This document shows positions 2,589 to 31,880 of a stretch of DNA of 64,000 nucleotides, piece after piece. The stretch spans positions 1 through 64,000 of the forward strand of contig JAJEAG010000056.1 of assembly GCA_022824265.1 (NCBI GenBank). Reading direction: 5' to 3'. Position 1 is the first letter of the stretch. Every line of letters starts with the position of its first letter. The notes under the pieces are model-generated. The model worked only from the letters and a program-made list of their open reading frames with translations, made no database searches and was not told where the DNA came from. Both the position numbers and the translations under genes were made by a program. The stretch is from Candidatus Poribacteria bacterium (lineage in GTDB: Bacteria; Poribacteria; WGA-4E; WGA-3G).

Positions 2589-3704
2589 TCAATTTGTAGG
2601 ATTTGCTAATATATTTAAAACATCACCTTCCTGAACCTGATAAGTTTTTCCCTCCGTCCTCAACAATCCTTTACTTCTTGCTTGTGTGTAGCTTCCACAC
2701 TCAGTTAAATCTTTCCAGTTAATACACTCTGAACGTATAAATCCCTGTTCAAAATCTGTATGAATCAAACCCGCTGCTTCAACAGCAGTTTGTCCTTTAC
2801 GGAGTGTCCAAGCTCTTGCTTCTTTTTCTCCACCAGTAAAAAACGTAATTAACCCCATGAGTTGATAAGATGTCTGTATAAACCTGTCTAAAGCAGATTG
2901 ATTCAACCCCATTTCGACCATAAAGATTTGTGCGTCATCAGGGTCAAGTTGTGCAATTTCCATTTCCAATTGGGCTGCAAGAATAATTACCGCTGTCTGT
3001 TCCTGAGTTTCAAAGTCAGAAAATCGTTTATATATGTTATCAATATCTTGTAGTTGGTCTTCACTGATGTTAATGATGAGCAAAAGTGGTTTTTGTGATA
3101 AGAACCCGTACCCCCGTATGAGTTTTTCGTCGGCATCTGAAATTTCCAGTGAACGGAGCGGCTTTCCATCCTCAAGAGTTTGTTTATATGTTTCCAATAC
3201 TCTAAATTCATTCTGATATTCAGGAGTTTTCTGGTTTTGCAGTAGTTTTTCTAATCTGTTGAGACGTCCTTCAATTATTTGTAAATCTGCGAATGTGAAC
3301 TCCAAATTTACAGATTCTATATCTCTTTCACCATCAACATTTCCATCAACATGTGGCACAGTTTCGTCTTCAAATAATCTAACCACGTGCGCAAGCGCAT
3401 CAACAGTACGGAGTTCTGCAAGAACTCCCGCATTTAATTCAAGATTGTCAGGACGATCAACATTAGGATTCCTTGCCGATTGCGTAGTACCGCCAGCATC
3501 TATGTAATCAATAGTTGCAGGTACCATCTTATTACACTGAAATACCTTTGTCAATGGTTCCAGACGATCATCTGGAACAGAAACAGTGCTAAGATTATAC
3601 TGTTTGTTACTGGTATAATCACCAACAACTGCGTTTGATTGTGCTAATGCATTGAAAACTGACGTTTTTCCTACGTGCGGTCTTCCTACTATACCAATTC
3701 TCAT
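2589..3704 (-). CDS. ychF: YchF/OLA1-type Obg-like ATPase
   Basis: P-loop NTPase of the YchF/OLA1 family, ribosome-associated and ATP-preferring. The 371-aa protein has the Walker A segment GRPHVGKTSVF at the N-terminus, a D-x-x-G switch (DAGG near residue 70), the family-specific N-x-x-E base-recognition motif (NISE near residue 213) in place of NKxD, and a C-terminal TGS-like region with FIRSECINWKDL. It is unusual in that the switch region reads DYIDAGGTTQSA where canonical YchF has DIAGLVxGAS, and the P-loop is GRPHVGKT rather than GLPNVGKS. It may be a divergent paralogue. It stands alone, convergent with plsC. Confidence 0.8.
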   Translation of the reverse strand: MRIGIVGRPHVGKTSVFNALAQSNAVVGDYTSNKQYNLSTVSVPDDRLEPLTKVFQCNKMVPATIDYIDAGGTTQSARNPNVDRPDNLELNAGVLAELRTVDALAHVVRLFEDETVPHVDGNVDGERDIESVNLEFTFADLQIIEGRLNRLEKLLQNQKTPEYQNEFRVLETYKQTLEDGKPLRSLEISDADEKLIRGYGFLSQKPLLLIINISEDQLQDIDNIYKRFSDFETQEQTAVIILAAQLEMEIAQLDPDDAQIFMVEMGLNQSALDRFIQTSYQLMGLITFFTGGEKEARAWTLRKGQTAVEAAGLIHTDFEQGFIRSECINWKDLTECGSYTQARSKGLLRTEGKTYQVQEGDVLNILANPTN

Positions 3705-3761
3705 GTTAGTTTCGTTTTCTTATTTATGGGTTGTGTAAATTAGCATATAACACGATATAGA

Positions 3762-3790
3762 TTGACATCATTCATTGAAAATGCTAATAT
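3762..3790 (+). promoter_or_regulatory. Sigma70-type promoter
   Basis: TTGACA (3762-3767), a 17-bp spacer, TAATAT (3785-3790), about 50 nt before the ATG at 3839. Close to consensus. It would drive the membrane protein and the following methyltransferase. Confidence 0.6.
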
Positions 3791-3838
3791 ATCTCAGTAG
3801 TGATAATTGCGAAAAATATAATATGAGGTATATCCTAA

Positions 3839-4219
3839 ATGTCTTCAGAAAAACCTAATTGGAAACGGCATCTTACCAAAGCATTGGTAATTCTATTAAT
3901 ATTCATGGTTTGTTTAGCGATCTTGCAGTGGTTTATTATCCAAGCACTTTTCGGGTTTGGTACAAAAATGGTAATGGAAGCTATGGTTAGACAAGCACCA
4001 GAAGGTGTAAACCGTGATGATATAATCATGACTTTTGAAAGAGTTAAAGGTAGAGCGCAACAACTACCGTTCAGTTTTATCGCTGGGAAAATCAACCTAC
4101 GGAAAGTCAAAAATGCAGGTGATTTTGCTATCGCAGCGAATACAGATGAAAGTTGGACCGCAGAGGAAATAAATGCGCTTTTAAGTCTATTAAATGCTTC
4201 TGTCGGTTACAAACAGTAA
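3839..4219 (+). CDS. Small single-pass membrane protein, function unknown
   Basis: A 126-aa protein with a basic N-terminus (KPNWKRHLTK), one strong hydrophobic helix at about residues 15-38, and a soluble C-terminal part ending in a segment resembling a helical hairpin (WTAEEINALLSLLN). I do not recognise the family. It lies 18 nt upstream of a methyltransferase and shares its predicted promoter, so the two are likely co-transcribed. Topology is predicted N-in with the soluble part outside. Confidence 0.6.
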   Translation: MSSEKPNWKRHLTKALVILLIFMVCLAILQWFIIQALFGFGTKMVMEAMVRQAPEGVNRDDIIMTFERVKGRAQQLPFSFIAGKINLRKVKNAGDFAIAANTDESWTAEEINALLSLLNASVGYKQ

Positions 4220-4237
4220 ATTGAGAATTTGATCTAA

Positions 4238-4990
4238 ATGTTACAAACACCGCCATACGAAAAATTTGCTTATGCTTATGACCAGATGATGAGGAACGTC
4301 AACTATATTAGATGGGGCGATTATATTGAGTTATTATTCAAGAAATATAGTTGTGAACCTCAAACAATCCTTGATGTTGCCTGTGGCACGGGTGCTTTAA
4401 CGCTCTTATTAGCCTCAAGAGGATATCAGATGTCCGGTTTAGATAGAGCAAACGGTATGCTGCAGGTTGCACGTGAAAAGACAGCAGAACAACAATTGCA
4501 GATAGATTTTCATCAAGGAGATATGCTAAATTTCCAGTTAGATCGTCAGTTTGATACTGTTCTATGTACCTACGATAGTATCAACTATGCATCTGATGAA
4601 GATGAACTTATGAGTACATTTAAGTCAGTATCACATCATCTTGCACCAGACGGTCTATTTATTTTTGATGTTACCACTGAACGTAATATCGTAGAACATT
4701 TTCACAATAAGACTTTTTCAGAAAACCACCAAGATTATTCCTACATTTGGAAGAATAACTACCTCACACATTCAAAGTTGTGCAGAACCTTCTTGACCTT
4801 TTTTATTCGGGAAGGTGATTTGTTCAGACGTTATGAAGAAGTACATCACCAACGGATTTATGAGGTGTCTACGGTACACGAACTACTGAAGGCAACAGGT
4901 TATAAAATGCTTAGTGCTTATGACATGTATACAATTAATCGGTGGAACCGTTTTTCAGACCGTATTAATTTCACCGCACAACTTGCGTAG
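4238..4990 (+). CDS. Class I SAM-dependent methyltransferase
   Basis: A 250-aa cytosolic methyltransferase. Motif I (DVACGTGALT) lies at about residues 46-55 and the acidic ribose-binding position (SGLD) about 20 residues later. Motif II/III is represented by HQGDMLNF and FDTVLCTYDSINY. The substrate is not evident; the fold is of the small-molecule, UbiE/BioC-like type. It follows the membrane protein by 18 nt and is convergent with the leuB-type gene. Confidence 0.8.
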   Translation: MLQTPPYEKFAYAYDQMMRNVNYIRWGDYIELLFKKYSCEPQTILDVACGTGALTLLLASRGYQMSGLDRANGMLQVAREKTAEQQLQIDFHQGDMLNFQLDRQFDTVLCTYDSINYASDEDELMSTFKSVSHHLAPDGLFIFDVTTERNIVEHFHNKTFSENHQDYSYIWKNNYLTHSKLCRTFLTFFIREGDLFRRYEEVHHQRIYEVSTVHELLKATGYKMLSAYDMYTINRWNRFSDRINFTAQLA

Positions 4991-9182: not shown

Positions 9183-11888
9183 ATGTACAAGAATTTTCTC
9201 GCGTTAAATGACCTGTCTGATGAAGAATTGATTCAGCTTGTACAGAATAGGAACGAAGCAGCTTTTGCAGAGATCATGTCTCGTTGGACATCTCGGATTT
9301 GGGGTGTTATTGTTGCCAACTCAAGGCAACTTCGAGACGCTGAAGAAATTCACACCGACATCTGGATAGCGGTCTGGCAAAACATCAGAGAACTCAGAAA
9401 TGTTGATAGTTTTGGTGCATGGTTACATCGCATTGCATATAACGAATGCAAGCGTTATTATATTTCGGCGCGAAAATCGCGTCATGAAATACCGCATCAA
9501 CACTCAGCGATCGTTGAACAGATTGACCAATATGCTGCTGCGCGATATAGAGAAGCACACTTGATTGCTGATGTGAAAGAAGCTTTACATCACCTCCCAC
9601 AGAAGATACGTTCTGTAGCGGAATTGTTTTATTTAGAATCGTGGAGTATCAAAGAAATTGCTGTGGAACTCAATCTCGCGATTGGTACAGTTAAAACGAA
9701 GTTAAGAGAGATACGAAAACGTCTGCGTGAGGAATTTGATGTAGAAGCTATCAGAGGAGAAGTAATGTCTTCAAAAGATGTTGAAACACACATTCCAATT
9801 CAGATTGAGACATACGAAGCAAAGCCAAGCATGACACCAGCACTGCTGAATGTTGTTGCGGATGACCCTACAGGGAATACTTGGGCAATACCAGAAGGGG
9901 CAATTGTTAGGTTGGGAAAAGGGGGGAACAGGGGAGGTAGCAAACTTTCCCCAAATGGAACACATTTTGCTGTAGCCACTTCAACAGGGTTATGGTGGTA
10001 TGATGTTTCCTCGATGTTGCCTGTTTCGTTATGGGAACCGGGTAAGGGATACATCAGTTCCATCAATTTCTCTCCTGATGGTCAATGGGTCATAATATCT
10101 ACAATATCTGCTGGGAACGGAACCATCAAGATTATGGATATTCAAAGCGGAGAGTGCATCATGCAGATAGAGGATCATGATGTGTGTAAAGATCTTGCAT
10201 GTTCATCAAATGGAAAGTGGGTCGCGACAGCATCTAAAAAAGGCGTTGTAAAGGTGTTGGATATCCAAACTGGTGAGTGCATTGCTCAGATGGATCGTGG
10301 AGAACACATAAGGCAATCAAACGATATTTCCCAACTCCAATTTTCCCCAGATGGTAAATTACTTGCCGCGCATGCTGGAAACCCCAAACTGTACTCAAAC
10401 GACGATGAACTCTTGAATCCTGATACAGAAGGAGATCAAATTTATGTCTGGTGTCCTATATCTGGCAAGGTGATACTCAAGTTTGCAGGACAAGATTTTA
10501 CCTTTTCCTCAGACAGTCGTTTGTTAGCGGTTACATGTCCTGACGAAACCTTGAACAATGACGAAAGCGTTGACCGTTGGATTTCAGTATGGGATGTAAC
10601 ATCATGGGAACTCCTCACACAATTTACAGGACATGACGATTGGATAGATACCATCGCTTTTTCACCGTGTGGACAATTCGTTGCCTCAAGTGACGGGATA
10701 CTACGGGTATGGGATATTGCAACAGGTTCAGAAAAGAATGTTTATCCTGACTTTCCAGACTATCAATATATATTCTACTCAGCGAAAGGGGAACTGTTTG
10801 TAGTAATAGTTCGTTCACCTACTTTGTCTATTGAAGTATGGAATGTAGAACATCGTGAAAAGATATATGAGATATCTGATATTGAAGGTATGGGATATGG
10901 TTTAGCCTTCGCCTATATAAAACGATTGGCTAATACAGCATCCTACAAACAGACAGATGGAAAAATACCGAAGTTCTCAACAGTGCGAGAACCTATTTTT
11001 CCCGAGTGGTTTGATCTGGATATAAATTGGTTAGATGACCAGACACTTGTAAGTAATGGTAGCACAGGAATAGTGTTATGGAGTGTAGACAAGAAATGTT
11101 ACCTTGATACAGTGTCCATAGATGGAGAGATAGATGCTATTACAGTTCTACCTTCTGGTAAAATGCTGGTTTCTTATTTTCCTGATTATATGAAAATGTG
11201 TGTTGCAAGCGTACCTTTTCAGCTAATTGCTGAGTTAGCTTTTCCTGATGAACTATCGGAATTGAATCGTTTTCGTGTATTTTCACCGACTGGTGAGTAT
11301 TTTGCGACAGGAAGTAGTGAAGGTACAGTCTATGTGTGGAATCTCAAGCAACCTGAGCACCCGATACGTCTCAAGGGACATACAGATTACGTTTACAGAT
11401 GTGAGTTTTCGTGGGATGGGAAACGCCTCGTGAGTGGAGCAAGTGACGAGACTGCGCGTGTGTGGGATGTGGAATTAGGTAAAGAAATTGCCAGATTGCC
11501 TGTGGACGAGTCTGACACAGCGTGGGGATTTGTGTTCTCACCCAGTGGTAACCTTATCGCGGGTTCTTTGGATAATGAGATCCGTCTCTGGTGTGCTAAG
11601 CAGTTCACAAAGGTCCGTTCAATACCGCAACCGAAGAAAAACAGGCAGACACATCCACTTGCATTTTCACCTTGTGGACAGTATCTTGCAGCAGCGACTT
11701 GGTGGCAGGAAGGATCGGAAGATATGGCAATTCGGATATGGGATGTTAATTCAGGTGAACAGGTCCATGCCTTCCAAGGACATAATTCACTTGTGCAATC
11801 GCTTGCATTTTCGCCAAATGGCTCAATGTTAGCAATTGGTTGTTGCAATAGCACAATCCTTGTGTGGGATCTAAAACAGTACCTGTAG
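9183..11888 (+). CDS. ECF sigma factor fused to double WD40 propeller
   Basis: A 901-aa fusion. Residues about 14-95 form a sigma70 region 2 (ending near FGAWLHRIAYNECKRYY) and residues about 130-183 form region 4 with the helix-turn-helix IKEIAVELNLAIGTVKTKL. After a linker comes IPEGAIVRLGKG (236-247) and about 14 WD40 blades. There is no transmembrane segment, so the whole protein is predicted cytosolic. The sigma part is a clear paralogue of that at 19039, and the propeller resembles those at 6779 and 11907. An internal ATG with its own ribosome binding site lies at the junction (residue 195). Likely a sigma factor controlled by its own propeller. It is followed 18 nt later by a WD40 gene, forming an operon. 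Confidence 0.85.
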   Translation: MYKNFLALNDLSDEELIQLVQNRNEAAFAEIMSRWTSRIWGVIVANSRQLRDAEEIHTDIWIAVWQNIRELRNVDSFGAWLHRIAYNECKRYYISARKSRHEIPHQHSAIVEQIDQYAAARYREAHLIADVKEALHHLPQKIRSVAELFYLESWSIKEIAVELNLAIGTVKTKLREIRKRLREEFDVEAIRGEVMSSKDVETHIPIQIETYEAKPSMTPALLNVVADDPTGNTWAIPEGAIVRLGKGGNRGGSKLSPNGTHFAVATSTGLWWYDVSSMLPVSLWEPGKGYISSINFSPDGQWVIISTISAGNGTIKIMDIQSGECIMQIEDHDVCKDLACSSNGKWVATASKKGVVKVLDIQTGECIAQMDRGEHIRQSNDISQLQFSPDGKLLAAHAGNPKLYSNDDELLNPDTEGDQIYVWCPISGKVILKFAGQDFTFSSDSRLLAVTCPDETLNNDESVDRWISVWDVTSWELLTQFTGHDDWIDTIAFSPCGQFVASSDGILRVWDIATGSEKNVYPDFPDYQYIFYSAKGELFVVIVRSPTLSIEVWNVEHREKIYEISDIEGMGYGLAFAYIKRLANTASYKQTDGKIPKFSTVREPIFPEWFDLDINWLDDQTLVSNGSTGIVLWSVDKKCYLDTVSIDGEIDAITVLPSGKMLVSYFPDYMKMCVASVPFQLIAELAFPDELSELNRFRVFSPTGEYFATGSSEGTVYVWNLKQPEHPIRLKGHTDYVYRCEFSWDGKRLVSGASDETARVWDVELGKEIARLPVDESDTAWGFVFSPSGNLIAGSLDNEIRLWCAKQFTKVRSIPQPKKNRQTHPLAFSPCGQYLAAATWWQEGSEDMAIRIWDVNSGEQVHAFQGHNSLVQSLAFSPNGSMLAIGCCNSTILVWDLKQYL
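9753..9767 (+). promoter_or_regulatory. Internal ribosome binding site and ATG at sigma/WD40 junction
   Basis: AGAGGAGAAG followed by ATG at 9765, in frame with the fusion gene, with AGGAG 5 nt before the ATG. Initiation here would give a sigma-free WD40 protein of about 707 aa. The equivalent site at 19611-19623 has the same 5-nt spacing. Confidence 0.5.
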
Positions 11889-14047: not shown

Positions 14048-14075
14048 TGCAACCTGACAACATAAAATTCGCGTC
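14048..14075 (+). promoter_or_regulatory. Candidate ECF-type promoter
   Basis: TGCAACC (14048-14054), a 17-bp spacer, CGTC (14072-14075), preceded by TGACAATTA. The layout resembles ECF promoters with an AAC -35 and a CGTC -10. The same arrangement with identical spacing is found at 26384-26411 and 27472-27499. It lies about 38 nt before the start of a sigma-WD40 gene, which suggests autoregulation. Confidence 0.5.
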
Positions 14076-14112: not shown

Positions 14113-16839
14113 ATGAAGAAAAGCGATGCTGAATTGATTGATGAAATCCTATCGGGTGATGAGGATGCATTTAGTGCCTTAGTCCAAAAATACCAAAAAA
14201 GCGTTCATGCACTTGTTTGGAGAAAAATAGGTGATTTCCATATCGCAGAAGAAATTACACAAGATACATTCCTACATGTATACAAAAAATTACCAACCCT
14301 TAAAAATCCGAGACAATTCGCTGGATGGTTGTATGTGATAGTTAATCGGCAATGCATTGCATGGCTCCGCAAAAATAACAAACAGGCTGTGCAATCCCTT
14401 GAAACCACAAGTCAAGAGACTTTAGAAGAAACTGCTTATGCATGTTTTGTTTCAGAAAAGCGTGAAGAAATAGAGGTTGAAAGGCGACGTGAAGTTGTTG
14501 ACAGACTTCTGAGAAAGCTACCAGAGAGCGAACGTACTGTTGTAATACTCCATTACCTTGGGGAGATGTCTTGTGATGCAATTGGTAAATTTTTAGGTGT
14601 ATCCCCGAACACTGTGAAAAGTAGACTCAGCCGTGCTCGAAACCGTCTAAGAGAGAATGAATCACTTATCAGAGACACTCTCGGAAGTGTTAAATTATCC
14701 CCTAATTTATCTGATAATATTATGAGTGAAATTGGTAATGTCAGTCATACATCTCCATCCGGAACTAAACCGTTATTGCCGTTAGCATCATTAGGATCAT
14801 CTGTATTATTGGTTATACTTCTCATTGGCGCGAGTAATAAATACCTGACTCATTTTCAGTTGCCTTATAGTTTTGATGCGCAATTAGAAACTACGATTGA
14901 AATAGTCGAATCACCTGTCATACTAAATATCACACCAAAACTTGATGTGCAAAATCGGTTTGGAAATGATGCTGTGCGCGGGAAAAGCAGCAATGACGGT
15001 CTACAAGAAGGAAAAACATCTATGCAAAACAATCTTGCACAAGATTCTATATATTGGAAATTACCTGAAGGTGCTAAAGCACGTCTGGGTAAAGGTTATG
15101 TATATAGGATAAAGTATTCACCAGATGGCAATTTATTAGCGGTATCAGGAACTATAGGTATTTGGATATATGATGCACATACAGGTGAAGAACACAATCT
15201 CCTCTTGGGACACGGTTTAGGTGGTGTGCCAGCAATTGCCTTTAGTCCTAATAATCAACTTCTTGCAAGCGGTGGTAGAGACAAAACAATTCGACTATGG
15301 GATCCTAACACCGGACAACATAAAGCAACATTCATTGGACATCAAGATGCTGTTTATTCGGTGGCGTTTAGTCCCAATGGAAAGACTCTCGTAAGCTGTG
15401 GTGAGGATGAAACAATCCGTATGTGGGATGTAGCAACAGGTGAACTACGTTTTACATTTGCGGGACATGCTGGAGGTGTATCTGAAGTTGTATATTCTCC
15501 AGATGGTGATCTACTTGCCAGTTACGGATGGGATGAGATGATTCACATGTGGGATGCCCATACTGGAAGATACTTACGTTCACTTGATGGACAAACAAGA
15601 AATATTAATACCATAGTATTTTCTCCAAACAGTGAGATGTTAGCAAGTGGATGCGCGGAAGGAGCAATCAAGTTGTGGGATACAAACACTGGACAAACAC
15701 GCACAACACTACAAACTGCATCAGATTATAGGGGAGTAAGTTCAGTTTCATTCTCTCCAGACGGTAGGACATTTGTTAGCACGAATTATGAAGACGGTGT
15801 CATACAGTTTTGGGATGTAGCAACATGTGAACGAATCAAAACAATTGAAAGTCCGCCTGATACAACCGAGAAAACTGTGTTCTCTCCGGATGGGAAAACG
15901 TTAGTAAATGCTGGTGGAGATGGTACAATCCAGTTTTGGAATGTTGATACCTTGGAATCAATACGAACTCTTACAGGATACGCAAATATGTTTACTGATA
16001 TGGCATACTCACATGATGGAAATACACTCGCTATAGTAAGTTCTATGGAAAGGCTTCAATTATGGGATACACGCACTGGGAAATTGATGAAAACATATAC
16101 TTCACCTTATGGTAGTCTATTCTGTATTGCATTTTCACCAGATGGAGTAACCCTTGCGTGTGGAGGGAATATGGAAAATGCTGTCTGGTTTATCAATACT
16201 GAAACTTTGGAACATGGACACAATTTCGCAGGACCTAAAGGAAACGTTGAATCGGTAGCATTCAGTCCGGATGGACAGTTGCTTGCCTGTGGTGATTCCG
16301 ATGGAAACATCTATTTGTGGAATGCGGCTACTGGCGAAACTACAAAAATTCTTGAATGGCACGACGATTATGTACGAACTTTGGTGTTCTCAACCGATGG
16401 AAAGATGCTTGTGAGTACAAGTGATGCGGAAATTCGATTTTGGGACGTTACCACAGGAAAGACATTAAAAAAAGTCTCTGGTTACGATGTTTCATTGTCA
16501 CCTGATTGGCAAACGTTTGTAACTTTCGGCAGTGACCGCATGGTAAAATATTGGAACATGGATCAGGATGACCCTCTCAAGACTTTTTCACCAGAAGAAA
16601 AGTCAATTTTCCCAAGGTATTCACCAGATGGTCGAACATATACTACCATTGATTATGGAGGTGAAACCATATCATTTTGGAATGCGGAGACATCTGAAAT
16701 TCTTAAAACTTACTCTATCGGACATACAAAGAGTATCTGGTCAGAAGGTATAATGTTTAAGTCTTATTCACCAGATGGTCGAACATTTGCAACAGCAGGA
16801 TGGGACAGTACAATCCTTCTATGGGATGTCCCAAAATAA
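14113..16839 (+). CDS. Membrane-anchored ECF sigma-WD40 fusion
   Basis: A 908-aa protein. Region 2 of an ECF sigma factor spans about residues 5-90 and region 4 about 125-180, with the helix-turn-helix CDAIGKFLGVSPNTVKSRLSR. A proline/serine-rich linker leads to one strong transmembrane helix at about residues 220-241. A further linker of about 75 residues precedes LPEGAKARLGKG (317-328) and about 14 WD40 blades. Predicted topology puts the sigma domain in the cytosol and the propellers in the periplasm. The sigma part belongs to a different ECF subgroup from those at 9183 and 19039. A candidate ECF promoter lies just upstream. No anti-sigma gene is nearby, so the propeller is a plausible built-in regulator. 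Confidence 0.85.
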   Translation: MKKSDAELIDEILSGDEDAFSALVQKYQKSVHALVWRKIGDFHIAEEITQDTFLHVYKKLPTLKNPRQFAGWLYVIVNRQCIAWLRKNNKQAVQSLETTSQETLEETAYACFVSEKREEIEVERRREVVDRLLRKLPESERTVVILHYLGEMSCDAIGKFLGVSPNTVKSRLSRARNRLRENESLIRDTLGSVKLSPNLSDNIMSEIGNVSHTSPSGTKPLLPLASLGSSVLLVILLIGASNKYLTHFQLPYSFDAQLETTIEIVESPVILNITPKLDVQNRFGNDAVRGKSSNDGLQEGKTSMQNNLAQDSIYWKLPEGAKARLGKGYVYRIKYSPDGNLLAVSGTIGIWIYDAHTGEEHNLLLGHGLGGVPAIAFSPNNQLLASGGRDKTIRLWDPNTGQHKATFIGHQDAVYSVAFSPNGKTLVSCGEDETIRMWDVATGELRFTFAGHAGGVSEVVYSPDGDLLASYGWDEMIHMWDAHTGRYLRSLDGQTRNINTIVFSPNSEMLASGCAEGAIKLWDTNTGQTRTTLQTASDYRGVSSVSFSPDGRTFVSTNYEDGVIQFWDVATCERIKTIESPPDTTEKTVFSPDGKTLVNAGGDGTIQFWNVDTLESIRTLTGYANMFTDMAYSHDGNTLAIVSSMERLQLWDTRTGKLMKTYTSPYGSLFCIAFSPDGVTLACGGNMENAVWFINTETLEHGHNFAGPKGNVESVAFSPDGQLLACGDSDGNIYLWNAATGETTKILEWHDDYVRTLVFSTDGKMLVSTSDAEIRFWDVTTGKTLKKVSGYDVSLSPDWQTFVTFGSDRMVKYWNMDQDDPLKTFSPEEKSIFPRYSPDGRTYTTIDYGGETISFWNAETSEILKTYSIGHTKSIWSEGIMFKSYSPDGRTFATAGWDSTILLWDVPK
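15008..15024 (+). promoter_or_regulatory. Internal AAGGA and ATG before the propeller
   Basis: AAGGA (15008-15012) lies 9 nt before an in-frame ATG at 15022 (residue 304), just ahead of the LPEGAKARLGKG motif and after the membrane helix. Initiation here would give a cytosolic propeller of about 605 aa. It is weaker than the sites in the other two fusions. Confidence 0.35.
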
Positions 16840-16904: not shown

Positions 16905-18836
16905 ATGAAAATACTCAGCATCTTGCCTTATATATTACCATTAATATCTACCTCCTTTCTTCTCACATTCTTATCAGGTGTTGCTTTTTCCCAAAACTAT
17001 ATCCACTTAAGTCTACCTGAAGGAGCTAAGGCACGTCTTGGTAAAGGAAGAATACATCAGCTTAAGTATTTTCACGATGGTAAACGTTTGGCTGTTGCTA
17101 CTGCAATCGGAGTATGGATTTATGATGTTCAGACAGGTGAAGCACTTGATCTGCTCACTGGACATACGGCACAGGTTAAGTCAATTGTCTTCAGTCCAGA
17201 CGGAGAAACTTTAGCCATAGGGAGTGAGGACAATACTATCCAATTGTGGGATACCAAAACACATAAACTTAATGCAAAATGTATTGGTCATGAAAAGGAT
17301 GTCAATTTATTAGTGTTTAGTCCTGACAGTAAGATGCTTGTAAGTACCAGCAAGGATTGGAAGATGCGGCTCTGGGACGTACAAACAGGGAAATCACTTA
17401 AAACTATCACAGGTTGTGGTGCCGAAGATATGTATGCAATAACCTATACCCTCGACGGTGCTATGTTCCTCACTTTCAGGTATGATGACAGGTTTGAAGG
17501 ATATATTGAATTCTGGGATGGGAAAACTGGTGAGTTTGTAGAATCTGTTCTTATTGAAACAAAATTTGAGGCAGCATCGTTTTCTTCCTACTGCAAAATT
17601 CTGGCTATCATAGGTAATTACTCGTCTCCGCTTCAGTTTTGGGATGTAGAGAGTGGAAAACTTCTGCAAAGTGCTGAGAAGTGTGATGAAAGTTATGAGT
17701 CTTTAGAGTTTTCACCTGATGGACGTAATGTGATTACTATTGGAAAATGGGACTCCGTAAGTATTTGGGATGTAAGCACAGCAGAACGTCTGAACAGCAT
17801 GTCGTTTGGAAAACCGAATAATTCGGGCACTTATTCACCGGACGGGAAGACAATAGCAAGTGGAAGTGATGATGGTAGCATCCGATTTTGGGATGCTGCA
17901 ACTGGAGAACTTAAGAATACTATCACTGGTCACACGGATTCGCGCATCTTTTCCGCTGCTTTTTCTCCTGACGGTAGTACTCTTGCTACTGGTGGAGAGT
18001 CCAAAATCCAATGGTGGAATCCACAGACCGGTAAACGCTTGAAAACTATTACAGAACCGCGTTCCAGTGTTCATACTATAAAATACTCTCCTACTGCGAA
18101 GATTTTTGCTACTGGAGGCACATCCAAGAAAGCACGTTTGTGGGATGCGAAAACCGGCAGGTTCCTTGGCAGATTCTCAGTACACAAAGATCAGAGTCCT
18201 TACGGGAATAAGGAAAAGGTTTCTTCTGTCGCCTTTTCACCCGATGGTAACAAACTTGCGACCGGAGGTAGTGACAATCAAGTTTGTTTATGGGAAATTC
18301 TAACTGATGAACAATATTTGATTGGTGAACGTTTAGCAACCTTTACCGAACATACAGAGAGTGTTACTTCTGTAGAATTTTCTCCCGATGGGAAAGTCCT
18401 TGCAAGTGGAAGCAAAGATAAGACAATACAGATGTGGGATGTAAAATCTCGTAAGCATTTGAAAACCCTAACTGGACATGAAGAACCTATCACTGCTGTT
18501 GTTTATTCTCCCGATGGCAGTATTCTTGCCAGTGGAAGTGAAGATGGCACAATCCGCTTATGGGACGTAAATTCGGACAACTTTTTGTCCTCAAAAATAG
18601 AGGATGCAGGACATATAACTTCGCTCGTTTATTCTCCTGATGGTAGAATACTTGCATGTAGTACTGATGACGACAATGTAGTTCACCTATGGGATACCAA
18701 GACAGGACAGCTCCTTCAGACATTTACGGGACATACACAAAGTGTCAATGATGTTGTGTTTTCACCTGATGGTAAGACACTCGCAAGTGTAAGTGATGAC
18801 GGGACTGTCCTTTTGTGGGATCTCACAAAATTGTAA
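16905..18836 (+). CDS. Secreted double-propeller WD40 protein
   Basis: A 643-aa protein with an N-terminal signal peptide (hydrophobic core about residues 8-27, probable cleavage after VAFS or nearby), then LPEGAKARLGKG at about residues 37-48 and 14 WD40 blade ends, consistent with two propellers. It is predicted periplasmic. It lies 65 nt after the membrane-anchored sigma-WD40 gene, whose propeller faces the same compartment and carries the identical motif. The pair could therefore interact outside the membrane. AGGAG about 11 nt upstream supports the ATG. Confidence 0.82.
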   Translation: MKILSILPYILPLISTSFLLTFLSGVAFSQNYIHLSLPEGAKARLGKGRIHQLKYFHDGKRLAVATAIGVWIYDVQTGEALDLLTGHTAQVKSIVFSPDGETLAIGSEDNTIQLWDTKTHKLNAKCIGHEKDVNLLVFSPDSKMLVSTSKDWKMRLWDVQTGKSLKTITGCGAEDMYAITYTLDGAMFLTFRYDDRFEGYIEFWDGKTGEFVESVLIETKFEAASFSSYCKILAIIGNYSSPLQFWDVESGKLLQSAEKCDESYESLEFSPDGRNVITIGKWDSVSIWDVSTAERLNSMSFGKPNNSGTYSPDGKTIASGSDDGSIRFWDAATGELKNTITGHTDSRIFSAAFSPDGSTLATGGESKIQWWNPQTGKRLKTITEPRSSVHTIKYSPTAKIFATGGTSKKARLWDAKTGRFLGRFSVHKDQSPYGNKEKVSSVAFSPDGNKLATGGSDNQVCLWEILTDEQYLIGERLATFTEHTESVTSVEFSPDGKVLASGSKDKTIQMWDVKSRKHLKTLTGHEEPITAVVYSPDGSILASGSEDGTIRLWDVNSDNFLSSKIEDAGHITSLVYSPDGRILACSTDDDNVVHLWDTKTGQLLQTFTGHTQSVNDVVFSPDGKTLASVSDDGTVLLWDLTKL

Positions 18837-19038: not shown

Positions 19039-21573
19039 ATGGACACCGATTTGATGACTCTCAGTGATCTTCAAGATGATGCATTGATACGACTTGTACA
19101 AAACCGTGATGAGGCAGCTTTTGCTGAACTCATGTCGCGTCATACACCGCGTATCTGGGGTATAATTGTTTCAAAATCCAGACAACATCGTGATGCAGAA
19201 GAGATCCTCATGAATGTGTGGATAGCAGTCTGGGAGAATATTGAAGGTCTAAGGAAAATTGATAGTTTTGATACTTGGTTACGTCGAATTACATTAACCG
19301 CTTGTAGAAGATATTACAGTTCACACCGTCGTTCTCGTGATGTCATTCTTCAGAGTCATGAGGAATTATTTGAATATATTGACAGAGCTGCTCCTTCGCG
19401 TTATCGTGAAACACAATTACGTCAAGATGCCAGAGAGGCGGTCGATCATCTACCACAAAGGGTGCGTTCCATTGCACGATTATATTATCTTGAATCAAGG
19501 AATGTCAACGATATCGCGGATCAATTAAACATAGCAATAGGAACAGTCAAGACAAGATTAACTGAAATACGTACGATCCTACGTAAAGAATTTAGTGTTG
19601 AACTACAGCAGGGAGATGTTATGCATGTAGAGTCTGATAAAAGGCAAAGTCATGACAAGTATAAGGAGAACTATCTTCCTAAAGGAGCACTTGCACGATT
19701 TGGAAAAGGTTACATTTTTGATTTTTCTTATTCACCCGATGGTACACGATTTGCTGTGGGATGTACAATCGGTATCTGGTTATATGATACTCAAACCGGT
19801 GAAGAAATAAATTTTTTAAAAGGTCATAGCTATTATGTGAGTGGTGTGGATTATAGTCCTGATGGTAGCACACTTGCGAGTTATAGTGATTGGAATGACT
19901 ACACAATACGTCTGTGGGATCCAGATACTGGGGAATTGAAGGCATTGCTCACCGGACATGCAGCGGATATATCTTCTCTTGTTTTCAGTCCAGATGGCAA
20001 AACTATTGCGAGTGGAAGTAAAGACAAAACTATTCGTTTATGGAATGGTGTCACTGGTGAACTAAAAGCAACTTTGGAAGGTCATACTGATAAGATCAAT
20101 ACATTAGCGTTCAATCCAGATGGAAAGACACTTGCAAGCGGTGGAAGTGATGAAGTCATACGAATTTGGGATGTTTCAACAAGCGAACTTCTCTTAGTCT
20201 TTGCTGCGCACGCGAATTCTATTGATTTTCTTATGTATTCACCTAATGGGGAGATACTTATTAGTCAGGGACGCGATAACAATGTATGTTTATGGGATGC
20301 ACGGACCGGTGAGTTTATACGTTTATTCAAAATGAATGCAAAAGGAGTAGATTCAATTGATTTTTCAAGAGATTGGAAAACTCTTGCATGTGTTGACTCA
20401 GATAGAACACTCCATTTTTGGAATCCGCATACAGGTGAACAACTGAATACAATCAATTGGAAGAGAAAAATTAAGAATATCCTGTTTTCTTCAGATGGTA
20501 GTATCTGTGCCTGTAATGACGACGAAGATGGAACAATGCTTCTAATTGATGCCAAAAAGGGACAGTTATTATGTGACCTCAAAATACCTGGATTAAGAAA
20601 AGCTGTTAATGATTTTAAGTATTCACCCGATGGACGTTCACTTGCCGTTTCTAACGGATTTGAGATATATTTCTGGGATGTGAAACAAGGTGAACTTGAT
20701 AAGACAATTACGGGTTATTCTGAGGTTGTAAATTCTGTAGCATTTTCTCCAAATGGTGGTACAATAGTGAGTTTAGACAGTTACGTCCGGATTTGGGATA
20801 TAAACACACAGAAACTCATAAAGACAATTGATCCAAAAAGTTATGTTAGATCAATTGCATATTCCCCTGATGGTGAGACTCTTGCTTGCGGAACTCGTGA
20901 GAACACAATTCTGCGATGGGATGTTGACACATGGGAACAAAAGACAACCTTTGAAGCACACACGAAAGGATTATCATGCATAAACTACAGTTCTAATGGT
21001 AAAACCCTCGCAAGTGGAAGTTGGGACAAGACAATCCGATTGTGGAATTCAAATACTGGAGAACTCTTAAACACACTTATTGGACATACAGATGGGGTTC
21101 ATGATGTTGCCTTTTCACCGAATGGTGGTACTCTCGCAAGTGGAGGTTCCGAAGGAACAATTCGGTTTTGGGATGTTGCGACTGGCAAACTAATTAGAAC
21201 AATTGACACACAGTCTGAGAATTGTATAGATTCTGTGGCGTATTCACCTGACGGAAAGACAATTGCATGTACTAGTGATAACGGTGCTGATGGAATCCGT
21301 TTTTGGGATGTTAGCACCGGTGATCTCATAAAAACCGTAGCCGTGAAAGCAGCAGCATTTTCCGTAGAGTTTTCTCCGGATGGCAGCACATTTGCAAGTG
21401 GTGGTATAGGAGAACTCTCTGTTTGGGATGCTAAAACCTATAGCATTGTAAAAACTTTTACAGGACATATTGAACCTGTTTATTCAGTAGTCTATTCACC
21501 CGATGGTAAGACACTCGCAAGCGGTTGTAGAGATAGTACTGTGATTATATGGGATTTGGATTTAACGGAGTAA
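19039..21573 (+). CDS. ECF sigma factor fused to double WD40 propeller
   Basis: An 844-aa fusion. The first 190 residues are an ECF sigma factor very similar to that at 9183: region 2 about 14-95, region 4 about 130-183 with DIADQLNIAIGTVKTRL. A short linker leads to LPKGALARFGKG (213-224) and 14-15 WD40 blades. There is no membrane helix, so it should be cytosolic. An internal GGGAG-N5-ATG (ATG at 19621) marks the sigma/WD40 junction, as at 9765. There is no obvious ribosome binding site at the first ATG; ATG 19054 is an alternative start. It is followed 33 nt later by another WD40 gene. Confidence 0.85.
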   Translation: MDTDLMTLSDLQDDALIRLVQNRDEAAFAELMSRHTPRIWGIIVSKSRQHRDAEEILMNVWIAVWENIEGLRKIDSFDTWLRRITLTACRRYYSSHRRSRDVILQSHEELFEYIDRAAPSRYRETQLRQDAREAVDHLPQRVRSIARLYYLESRNVNDIADQLNIAIGTVKTRLTEIRTILRKEFSVELQQGDVMHVESDKRQSHDKYKENYLPKGALARFGKGYIFDFSYSPDGTRFAVGCTIGIWLYDTQTGEEINFLKGHSYYVSGVDYSPDGSTLASYSDWNDYTIRLWDPDTGELKALLTGHAADISSLVFSPDGKTIASGSKDKTIRLWNGVTGELKATLEGHTDKINTLAFNPDGKTLASGGSDEVIRIWDVSTSELLLVFAAHANSIDFLMYSPNGEILISQGRDNNVCLWDARTGEFIRLFKMNAKGVDSIDFSRDWKTLACVDSDRTLHFWNPHTGEQLNTINWKRKIKNILFSSDGSICACNDDEDGTMLLIDAKKGQLLCDLKIPGLRKAVNDFKYSPDGRSLAVSNGFEIYFWDVKQGELDKTITGYSEVVNSVAFSPNGGTIVSLDSYVRIWDINTQKLIKTIDPKSYVRSIAYSPDGETLACGTRENTILRWDVDTWEQKTTFEAHTKGLSCINYSSNGKTLASGSWDKTIRLWNSNTGELLNTLIGHTDGVHDVAFSPNGGTLASGGSEGTIRFWDVATGKLIRTIDTQSENCIDSVAYSPDGKTIACTSDNGADGIRFWDVSTGDLIKTVAVKAAAFSVEFSPDGSTFASGGIGELSVWDAKTYSIVKTFTGHIEPVYSVVYSPDGKTLASGCRDSTVIIWDLDLTE
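19611..19623 (+). promoter_or_regulatory. Internal ribosome binding site and ATG at sigma/WD40 junction
   Basis: GGGAG (19611-19615), 5 nt, then an in-frame ATG at 19621. The flanking codons read GDV-M, matching GEV-M in the paralogue at 9765. Initiation would give a free propeller of about 650 aa. Confidence 0.5.
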
Positions 21574-26383: not shown

Positions 26384-26411
26384 TGCAACCAAATCACCAA
26401 AACAACGCGTC
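26384..26411 (+). promoter_or_regulatory. Candidate ECF-type promoter
   Basis: TGCAACC (26384-26390), a 17-bp spacer, CGTC (26408-26411), with TGATAATCA before it. Same layout and spacing as at 14048. It lies about 75 nt upstream of the single-propeller WD40 gene. Confidence 0.5.
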
Positions 26412-26485: not shown

Positions 26486-27418
26486 ATGGAGATGATGAGT
26501 GCGGATCACGCACTTTATTTAACATTTGAAGGATATCAGGAAGGAGTCAATAGTGTAGTATTTAGTCAATATGGTAATACACTCGCAGCAGATATGGACA
26601 ACACCATCAGATTATGGGATATTTCAACAGGACAGGAAAAGAAGATATTCTGGGTGGATATCGGAGAGCATTCCACAAGTGGTGTTAAAAGTGTAGCAAT
26701 TAGTCCAAACGGATGTATGATCGCTGGGGGTATTAACGAAATAGAGACAATCTGTTTATGGGATATGGAAACAACTGAACAAATCAATTTAATACGTGAA
26801 AGAAAAAGCAAAGCTATGCATTGGGTCAATGCTGTTGCATTCAGTATTGATGGTAAGATGCTTGCAAGTGGAAGTGAAGACGGTAATCTTTACTTGTGGA
26901 ATGTAATAACAGGTGAAAAAATAAAAGCACTTACAGAAGATACAGAGAATATCTTTAGTATTGCATTTTCACCTGATGGCAAAACGATAGCGAGTGGAAA
27001 TGCTGATAATACTATACAATTATGGGATCTCGCATCTGGCGAAAACACCGCGACTTTGGAAGGACATACTGATTGGGTTTTCTCTGTAGTTATTAGTCCA
27101 GATGGCAAAACACTCGCAAGCGGTAGTAAAGACAAAACAATACGACTTTGGGATACTACCACAAATAAAGAAAAGAAACCACTTATCGGACATCAGAACA
27201 TTGTATGGAGTGTTGCATTTAGTCCAGATGGGAAAATACTTGCAAGTGGAAGTGAAGACAACACAATACGTCTGTGGGATATTGCTACAGGTGAACATAT
27301 TGAAACGATAACAGGACACACTAGTCCTGTTAAATGCGTAGCATTTAGCCCAGATGGAACAAAAATAGCAAGTAGCACTGACAATGGTGCTGTGTTTATT
27401 TGGGAAATCTATCTTTGA
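26486..27418 (+). CDS. Single-propeller WD40 protein
   Basis: A 310-aa protein of seven WD40 repeats, matching one seven-bladed propeller with no extra domains. It lacks the LPEGA head motif and any signal peptide, so it is predicted cytosolic. The repeats are closer to consensus than in the double-propeller proteins (GHTDWVFSVVISPDGKTLASGSKDKTIRLWD type). AGGAG precedes the ATG and a candidate ECF promoter lies upstream. It is the last intact gene of the array. Confidence 0.85.
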   Translation: MEMMSADHALYLTFEGYQEGVNSVVFSQYGNTLAADMDNTIRLWDISTGQEKKIFWVDIGEHSTSGVKSVAISPNGCMIAGGINEIETICLWDMETTEQINLIRERKSKAMHWVNAVAFSIDGKMLASGSEDGNLYLWNVITGEKIKALTEDTENIFSIAFSPDGKTIASGNADNTIQLWDLASGENTATLEGHTDWVFSVVISPDGKTLASGSKDKTIRLWDTTTNKEKKPLIGHQNIVWSVAFSPDGKILASGSEDNTIRLWDIATGEHIETITGHTSPVKCVAFSPDGTKIASSTDNGAVFIWEIYL

Positions 27419-27471: not shown

Positions 27472-27499
27472 TGCAACTAATGCATAATCATATTGCGTC
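27472..27499 (+). promoter_or_regulatory. Candidate ECF-type promoter copy
   Basis: TGCAACT (27472-27478), a 17-bp spacer, CGTC (27496-27499), preceded by TGACAATTA as at 14039. It overlaps the WD40 remnant at 27480, so it may be a relic carried by duplication, or it may drive the GspC-like and free ECF sigma genes downstream. Confidence 0.4.
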
Positions 27500-27742: not shown

Positions 27743-28222
27743 ATGCATATCAGAAGTATACTCATTACAAGTTTCCTGCTTTTACTAATATTAACATTCG
27801 GAGCATTTCTATACCAAAAGAACAACACACAACCAAATTCCTCTACAAATACATCCATTCAGATTACTCCCTTAAATCAACAGAATATCAAATCAATCCA
27901 AAAGAAAAGCAAACACATTGACAGCAAGAACTCTGATGAGTTCTACAAACCGATTATAGAAAATAATATCTTTAGACGACTTGGATGGAAACCTCCCAAA
28001 AAACCGGAGGAATTTATCCTTTACGGAACAGCAAGTACAGAGGATGAAAGGAAATCCAAAGCGTATATATATGAAACACAATCAAAGCGACTACATACAG
28101 TTAAGGTTGGTGATACGATTGGAAAAGCTAAAATAACTGAAATAGGTGAAAAGCAGGTTAAAATGGATAAAGATGGTAAAGAAATAAAACTACAATGTGG
28201 AAAAATGCGTCTTCTCCGTTAA
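27743..28222 (+). CDS. GspC/PilP-like inner-membrane protein
   Basis: A 159-aa protein with one N-terminal transmembrane helix (about residues 5-23), a polar S/N/Q-rich linker, and a C-terminal domain with NIFRRLGWKPP, FILYGTAS, YIYETQSKRLHTVKVGDTIGKAKI and a closing basic-acidic strand. This order matches the homology region of type II secretion GspC and the related PilP pilus proteins. No other secretion genes are adjacent. It is followed 48 nt later by a free ECF sigma factor. Confidence 0.65.
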   Translation: MHIRSILITSFLLLLILTFGAFLYQKNNTQPNSSTNTSIQITPLNQQNIKSIQKKSKHIDSKNSDEFYKPIIENNIFRRLGWKPPKKPEEFILYGTASTEDERKSKAYIYETQSKRLHTVKVGDTIGKAKITEIGEKQVKMDKDGKEIKLQCGKMRLLR

Positions 28223-28270
28223 ATCTCTGGTTGGTATAGATTTTCAACTACAATTATATGTGAGGGTAAA

Positions 28271-28900
28271 ATGGATAATTCATTTGTAACGAATTCCGAA
28301 CTAAGTCTATATGATGAAAAGAAACTTATTAATCGGACACAGAAGGGAGAGTCAGAAGCATTTAACCCCATTGTCATGAAATATAGACAGAGAATCTATA
28401 ATATGATTTACCAACGAGTGAGTGACCGTGAAACAGCTGAGGATATTTGCCAAGAAGTATTCTTGAAAGCTTGGAAGGCACTACCGAAATTTAAAGGACA
28501 ATCCGCTTTATATAGTTGGATATATAAAATTGCAATCAATTGTATTATTGATTACTATCGTAAACGAAACAGACACAATGTAATGAATCTGGAAGAATTT
28601 CCAGAATATACAGATGACATTCCTCATACTAAGGGCAATCGTACTCCTCAATCACAAATCCTGGAAAATAAGGAATTCGAAGATATCATCAGTGAAGCAG
28701 TGAGTAGGCTCCCATTTGGTCAAAGACGTGTTTTTCATTTACGTTATGATGAGGAACTTCCCATAAAAGATATTGCCTCACGTCTGAATAGGTCTGAGGG
28801 AACGATAAAAACCCATTTATTTCACGCCCATCGTAAATTACGTGATATGCTGTTGCCCTACCTTCATAATGAACATATCGGTTGGCTCATCAATGCCTAA
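28271..28900 (+). CDS. Stand-alone ECF sigma factor
   Basis: A 209-aa RpoE-like sigma factor. Region 2 (about residues 28-95) contains ETAEDICQEVFLKAWKALPKF and SALYSWIYKIAINCIIDYYRK. Region 4 (about 145-195) contains the helix-turn-helix IKDIASRLNRSEGTIKTHLFHAHRKL. It lacks any C-terminal extension, unlike the fused sigma factors upstream, and no anti-sigma gene follows. GAGG 5 nt before the ATG supports the start. It could recognise the TGCAACY-N17-CGTC sites in the WD40 array, but so could the fused sigma domains. Confidence 0.88.
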   Translation: MDNSFVTNSELSLYDEKKLINRTQKGESEAFNPIVMKYRQRIYNMIYQRVSDRETAEDICQEVFLKAWKALPKFKGQSALYSWIYKIAINCIIDYYRKRNRHNVMNLEEFPEYTDDIPHTKGNRTPQSQILENKEFEDIISEAVSRLPFGQRRVFHLRYDEELPIKDIASRLNRSEGTIKTHLFHAHRKLRDMLLPYLHNEHIGWLINA

Positions 28901-31555: not shown

Positions 31556-31880
31556 CTGTCATTAGGTATCAGTACTTTCACACAGTGATTTTCCTCTAAC
31601 ATTAATTGATTATCTAATTGCGTTGTTTGCTACAGAATGTGTGTTGGGTGTTGCTTATCCAACCAATCAACTGCAGTTATCATAAATACCCAAAATTGTG
31701 CAAATGAATCCACAGATGCACATTTTTGGGCATTACATAGATAGTTATGGCATATAAATATCCTTTTTCAGCATTGTCCACCTAATACAATATGGCATGA
31801 AAATTGCTCGTAATAACTAAATAAAAAAATGATTTGAAGTCATTTTAACAATCTCACGGAAATAATAGGTGGGCATAATT
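31556..31880. other. Intergenic region with imperfect inverted repeat
   Basis: There is no gene. An imperfect 16-bp inverted repeat, TACCCAAAATTGTGCA (31687-31702) and TGCACATTTTTGGGCA (31717-31732), two mismatches, could form a hairpin but lacks a T-run. The last 20 nt hold the AGGTGGG ribosome binding site of the next gene. Confidence 0.5.

Follow-up and report, generated by a model that had tools for sequence, protein, structure and literature searches.

An ECF sigma factor is usually restrained by an anti-sigma factor encoded as its own protein; in SigW-RsiW, SigV-RsiV and CnrH-CnrY this partner is a membrane protein. Fusions have also been described. IutY of Pseudomonas putida (ECF243), in which the sigma is fused to a membrane anti-sigma, is cut by Prc and RseP and functions in cell-surface signalling for aerobactin (PMC8999054). 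In the ECF48, ECF52 and ECF53 groups of Actinobacteria (e.g. SCO4117), a zinc-finger anti-sigma, a membrane helix and an extracellular domain are joined to the sigma, and proteolysis has been proposed for them (PMC8999054). ECF57 sigma factors of Planctomycetes bear a WD40 extension, described as interacting with proteins, and a pair of cysteines that links sigma2 and sigma4 (PMC8999054; also PMC8567305).

Here, we describe a gene of a Candidatus Poribacteria MAG (4.45 Mb) whose product is filed under none of IutY-type, ECF48/52/53 or ECF57, these being compared by their described features. Poribacteria are uncultured bacteria living in sponges. The stretch of DNA analysed (the window) is 64,000 nucleotides long, and the gene occupies positions 14113-16839 (+) as a single open frame whose translation has 908 aa. 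The protein works most like IutY, yet without the anti-sigma feature that defines IutY and ECF52. As the best explanation of the locus as a whole, with a probability of roughly 0.55, we propose a membrane-tethered, autoregulated sigma factor that is freed by regulated proteolysis and drives a set of shared promoters, including its own. Within this proposal, we infer a ligand, an inhibition at rest, a proteolytic release and a sigma that reads TGCA[A/C]C-N16/17-GCGTC.

Residues 1-182 (14113-14658, +) form an ECF sigma domain by Pfam and NCBIfam. Sigma70_r2 lies at 23-90 and r4_2 at 127-179, both above the Pfam cut-offs; TIGR02937 (sigma70-ECF) scores 100 bits, its cut-off being 42.9; and sigma2 and sigma4 are the only sigma regions, with no sigma1.1 or sigma3, as expected of an ECF factor. 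The closest solved structures are those of SigW and sigma-E, and the predicted sigma part resembles the anti-sigma-bound structures of SigW, AlgU and CnrH. This last likeness is suggestive, many of the top matches being such complexes, and was rejected as proof that the linker inhibits the sigma.

The linker itself (residues 183-218; 14659-14766, +) is assigned to the cytosol, with a helix predicted at 199-208 in the AlphaFold2 model; among family members, 34-48 aa separate sigma region 4 from the best hydrophobic window. A zinc-finger or FecR-type anti-sigma inside the linker was considered and dropped: no Pfam family occurs in residues 182-316 at E values up to 1, and the zinc-finger motif HxxxCxxC is found between sigma and membrane in 0 of 111 family members. 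No anti-sigma gene is seen adjacent to the window gene either, so the term ‘one-component’, used for the protein in the original prediction, fits. That the linker inhibits the sigma is a guess. Its helix is recognisable too in some sister sigmas that have no membrane segment, and because it is kept there it may act on the sigma itself.

Set beside the known systems, the protein resembles IutY in carrying a cytosolic ECF sigma, a membrane span and a periplasmic sensing part in one polypeptide, but differs from it in having no anti-sigma domain, in an outer part that is a propeller or another module, and in belonging to an expanded family. With ECF48, ECF52 and ECF53 it shares a C-terminal extension with a membrane helix (here by hydropathy and conservation) and an extracellular domain; unlike them, it comes from another phylum and has no zinc-finger (ZAS) anti-sigma before the helix. 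The ECF fold and envelope sensing are common to it and to SigW-RsiW, SigV-RsiV and CnrH-CnrY, whereas here the sigma itself is anchored.

A single transmembrane segment is assigned to residues 219-240 (KPLLPLASLGSSVLLVILLIGA; 14767-14832, +). Its hydrophobic core, LLPLASLGSSVLLVILLIG (221-239), reaches a Kyte-Doolittle 19-residue mean of 2.36, and the same maximum is 0.7-1.3 in six other window proteins without a signal peptide. In 123 of the 124 family members the segment scores at least about 1.6, and the sole exception ends at a contig edge; the segment is both strong and conserved. AlphaFold2 drew no helix at 220-240, where pLDDT is below 50 in both models, and was therefore dropped as proof of either a membrane helix or inhibition by the linker; the evidence for the helix consists of its hydropathy, its conservation and the distribution of cysteine.

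That distribution also bears on orientation. Behind the membrane segment, the 29 WD40-type family members contain 0.43% cysteine, close to the 0.44% of WD40 proteins with a signal peptide (n=7), and the propellers without a signal peptide together with the soluble ECF-WD40 proteins contain 1.27-2.68% (n=9), with no overlap (Mann-Whitney p=8e-6, an optimistic value, as the sequences are related). Because the outer part is depleted in cysteine like signal-peptide propellers and not like cytosolic ones, the proposed topology is supported. Additionally, K/R residues are more numerous on the inner flank than on the outer one (2.06 versus 1.35). One paralogue (L012), with a BNR propeller but no membrane segment, counts against this arrangement. 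Lectin, sortilin-like and M16 domains, all of which occur as outer domains in paralogues, are typically exported. A cytosolic sigma, one span and an extracytoplasmic propeller are well supported computationally, in line with the original prediction of this topology, by the conserved segment, the cysteine depletion, the extracellular-type domains of paralogues and the conserved secreted partner described below.

The same observations weigh on a cytosolic reading, in which the protein would be of the ECF57 kind, its hydrophobic segment buried or peripheral and its propeller binding cytosolic partners. Such a reading could appeal to the AlphaFold2 models without a membrane helix, to two other window ECF-WD40 fusions without a membrane segment and to the WD40 extensions of ECF57 sigmas (PMC8999054). 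It is, however, hard to reconcile with a hydropathy of 2.36 and its conservation, a cysteine content like that of secreted propellers, paralogues with lectin, sortilin and M16 outer domains, and a conserved secreted partner, and we regard it as very unlikely.

Directly outside the membrane lies a juxtamembrane motif (residues 241-275; 14833-14937, +), recognised by its conservation and with the core FQxPYSf..xsExTiEivDaPi. Residues 241-265 carry 3.24 bits, against 2.94 for the membrane segment and 3.41-3.58 for the sigma regions, and all 61 sequences compared have the same residues at Q249 and Y252. This conservation holds whatever outer domain follows, and the motif is also present in the families that we label f2 and f3. 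It is consistent with a site of proteolysis or with a coupling element, and offers a concrete site at which regulated proteolysis can be tested.

The outer domain (residues 320-908; 15070-16836, +) is identified by AlphaFold2, Foldseek and Pfam WD40 as 14 WD40 blades in two seven-bladed propellers. The number of beta strands in the model is 56, precisely the 14 x 4 of such an arrangement, and most blocks have a pLDDT of 70-96; the 14 blades are thus four-stranded, as in a double propeller, and double WD40 propellers in the PDB match the domain in Foldseek. The layout first read from the gene (an ECF sigma factor, a hydrophobic segment and 14 WD40 blades) is therefore upheld in all three parts, by Pfam and NCBIfam, the hydropathy and the strand count, respectively.

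After a gap of 65 nt, and with a ribosome site, follows a gene for a WD40 propeller with a signal peptide (16905-18836, +); no promoter of its own was found upstream of it, and it is probably an operon partner of the window gene. The original prediction was right that this next gene encodes a secreted propeller with an identical motif, the 12-mer LPEGAKARLGKG. With a few changes, the motif also occurs in propellers of the window that lack a signal peptide. A pairing code of the two propellers was consequently rejected in favour of a general propeller N-terminus within the window. The pairing with a secreted propeller recurs at two other loci (L018 and L029, with overlapping genes in L029), and at a third (L026) one gene lies between the sigma fusion and the secreted propeller. 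At several other loci the pairing is missing, the next gene there being on the opposite strand.

Searches of 84 genomes of the phylum, including the one that contains the window, place this protein in a large family. All 80 relatives kept from named genomes come from Candidatus Poribacteria MAGs. In its own genome, 19 further proteins are 47-58% identical to it over the first 300 residues and then differ in kind in their outer parts; copy counts made with a model built from just the membrane and juxtamembrane region give 21 intact copies there and one degenerate copy with stop codons. By the same model, genomes of genera g1 and g3 have 2-60 copies each (median 25) and those of g2 have 1-2; most genomes of families f2 and f3 have 1-3, and the other Poribacteria families that were tested have no copy. 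From this distribution, the expansion is recent, within one family of the phylum and from an ancestor with few copies. On plasmid records searched for planctomycete relatives, no match covers 80% of the window protein, and a soluble ECF-WD40 query on plasmid records returned the WD40 type only, among the matches listed.

The chassis of these proteins (sigma, linker, membrane segment and juxtamembrane motif) is constant, and the outer domain is exchangeable. Among 124 proteins of this and other genomes, the outer domain is BNR/YCF48 in 71, WD40 in 29 and of another kind in 20 (M16-like, Kelch, LRR, carboxypeptidase-regulatory [CarboxypepD_reg] and C-type lectin, with Kelch and LRR recognised by eye), and it is cut off in four; the f2 and f3 members that were read have a BNR-like outer domain. 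In a tree of the sigma domain, the window protein stands beside the BNR-type members L006 and L008 and the M16-type L007, with moderate support, and this grouping indicates that outer domains have been exchanged.

The C-terminal WD40 extension of ECF57 is accordingly present in the window protein and in a minority of its family. Like ECF57, the family has members with ECF and WD40 in one protein and forms large paralogous sets; it differs in its membrane segment and outer juxtamembrane motif and in the other outer domains of most members. As possible sigma2-sigma4 cysteines, C81 is found in 58 of 61 sequences and C154 in 22, always together with C81. More ECF57-like in appearance are the two further ECF-WD40 fusions of the window (9183-11888 and 19039-21573), which have no membrane segment. 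They stand far off in the tree (branch 3.1), so the ECF-WD40 fusion arose at least twice. The sigmas of these two are 57% alike, and upstream of each gene lies a similar element, TTTTTTAAACC...CCTC, which may represent another type of ECF promoter; a third relative lies in a 1365-aa frame elsewhere in the genome (G000:C38:5080).

Other forms without a membrane segment do belong to the family. L007 has as its neighbour in the tree a soluble, TPR-like form (L013 1027-2724; support 100/90), and the soluble forms of L015, fused to a beta clamp and to an S9 peptidase, fall inside the family, many forks being weak. Two L015 sister sigmas without a membrane segment also retain the family promoter, with scores of 26.2 and 25.3. 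As membrane-free sisters group within the family and some keep its promoter, the sigma seems not to need the membrane.

This promoter, of ECF type and reading TGCAACC-N-CGCGTC, lies at 14048-14075 (+), 37 nt before the start codon of the window gene. Its PWM score of 33.1 is the highest in the window in a scan whose matrix was trained without the window-gene site, and the maximum in six shuffled windows is 14.1. We therefore predict that the gene is autoregulated. The pattern is expected 0.04 times per window and was found three times. The second copy (26384-26411, +; PWM 27.6) is situated 75 nt before a gene for a 310-aa WD40 protein without a signal peptide (26486-27418, +), which, with this promoter and a ribosome site upstream, is a predicted member of the regulon. 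The third (27472-27499, +; PWM 21.6) precedes the remnant of a WD40 gene ending in ...DGTVLIWNLNL*. The soluble ECF-WD40 genes at 9183 and 19039 are not preceded by the shared promoter.

Across the family, a strict rule (TGCA[A/C]C-N16/17-GCGTC) finds the pattern in 52 of 120 upstream regions, against a mean of 1.6 and a maximum of 4 in shuffles, and the spacing from TGCA to CGCGTC is only ever 17 or 18. At a PWM score of at least 17, a site is present in 80 of 120 family members and in 2.5% of random regions, although up to 45 of the 80 had trained the matrix; one third of the members have no recognisable promoter. In 1.52 Mb scanned there are 96 matches, against one in shuffled sequence, and the genes downstream of them include, besides those for ECF sigmas, genes for signal-peptide proteins and ABC permeases (MacB-like and ABC-2); exported proteins and ABC permeases make up many of the non-ECF targets, which were taken from the neighbourhoods of family loci. 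An ABC-2 permease recurs downstream of the promoter at five loci.

At the level of whole genomes (57 family genomes and 25 outgroup genomes), the pattern outnumbers its reversed control by 327 to 108 in g1 (18 genomes) and by 902 to 401 in g3, and its excess tracks the copy number of the family (rho 0.61, p=4e-7). The 25 outgroup genomes have no excess over the reversed control (244 to 278). These results bear on a further reading, in which the tether acts chiefly as a sink: the proteins would serve as surface propellers, their sigma rarely released, and the family would have expanded through selection on surface domains for contact with host or phage, and not for signalling. Swapped outer domains and copy numbers of up to 60 are what it would lead one to expect, but a promoter that is kept and that tracks copy number is not, and neither is a sigma domain that is the most conserved part of the protein (3.4-3.6 bits); we think it very unlikely. 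We lean slightly towards regarding the family as lineage-specific one-protein receptors, in which the sigma itself is the membrane receptor, there is no anti-sigma, the sensors are exchangeable and tens of inputs converge on one promoter type.

Under the proposed release by proteolysis, the sigma domain would lie in the cytosol about 36 residues from the membrane and the double propeller outside, where it would probably work with the secreted propeller encoded at 16905-18836. At rest, the tether would keep the sigma off RNA polymerase, and the linker helix might serve as a short inhibitor within the protein itself. Once the outer domain changes, the juxtamembrane motif would become exposed to a first protease; a second cut, made inside the membrane by an RseP-like protease, would free the sigma, which would then drive the TGCA[A/C]C-N16/17-GCGTC promoters of its own gene and of some genes for exported proteins. 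An RseP-like protease gene is present in the genome, beside dxr. A linked site-2 protease gene, which the original prediction proposed to look for, is absent for the window gene: M50 genes exist in the genome, on other contigs.

This lack of a linked protease gene can be counted in favour of a sigma that is never cut. An outer change, transmitted by way of the membrane segment and the juxtamembrane motif, would then move the linker helix off the sigma, and the membrane-bound sigma would recruit RNA polymerase, as ToxR/CadC-type regulators do. The juxtamembrane motif and the linker are conserved enough for such mechanical coupling, and the helix kept in membrane-free sister sigmas may act on the sigma itself. 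A permanent tether, however, hinders a sigma both in travelling with the polymerase and in being exchanged, as it must, and IutY, the sole ECF fusion with a membrane anchor to have been examined closely, undergoes cleavage (PMC8999054). We consider an uncut tether possible but doubtful and prefer proteolytic release, with which the soluble sister sigmas are consistent in that they agree with a sigma acting off the membrane.

Our analysis suggests that sponge Poribacteria possess many one-protein systems that sense the outside and that have so far gone unstudied. A major lineage of sponge symbionts appears to dispense with the anti-sigma and to have expanded a fusion of receptor and sigma, up to 60 copies per genome, whose exchanged outer domains (propellers, lectin, Kelch, LRR and peptidase-like) resemble host-contact modules, and the shared promoter provides a predicted regulon in an unculturable group. 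In our literature search these fusions were undescribed for Poribacteria, the main ECF classification paper lying outside that search, so that an earlier mention is possible. WD40 proteins have been reported as abundant in Poribacteria, in a paper in which sigma goes unmentioned (Kamke 2014, PMC3909097).

Several further observations concern variants of the family and of its promoter. At six loci (L043, L047, L048, L059, L075 and L094) the promoter is a variant whose -10 element is TGTGTCTTTAAT or close to it; this variant precedes several ABC permease, secreted-protein and sigma genes and perhaps marks a subclass of sigma specificity. The shared promoter is kept before one copy that has lost its sigma part (L117, G000:C75:30010). 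Another sigma copy (L027:5001-5597) matches the first 184 residues of the window protein at 96% identity and then terminates within unrelated sequence; upstream of it, the likeness to the window is limited to the last 50 nt, and the copy is a rearranged or truncated one. In the same genome as the window, an ECF sigma of the family (L015:1321-3075, G000:C76) is fused to all three DNA polymerase III beta clamp domains and has the shared promoter upstream, a sigma-sliding clamp fusion being unusual. In other soluble sister sigmas, the fusion partner is an S9 peptidase together with its propeller (L015:4579-7386) or a TPR-like helical domain (L013:1027-2721 and 3012-4706).

Within the window, at positions 27743-28900, a gene for a small membrane protein resembling T2SSC comes just before one for a stand-alone ECF sigma factor. 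A WD40 protein with a signal peptide is encoded at 31869-34865, and by eye its C-terminal part resembles cohesin and dockerin together with a type IX-like sorting domain; such sorting domains have been described in this phylum as parts of WD40 proteins (Kamke 2014, PMC3909097).
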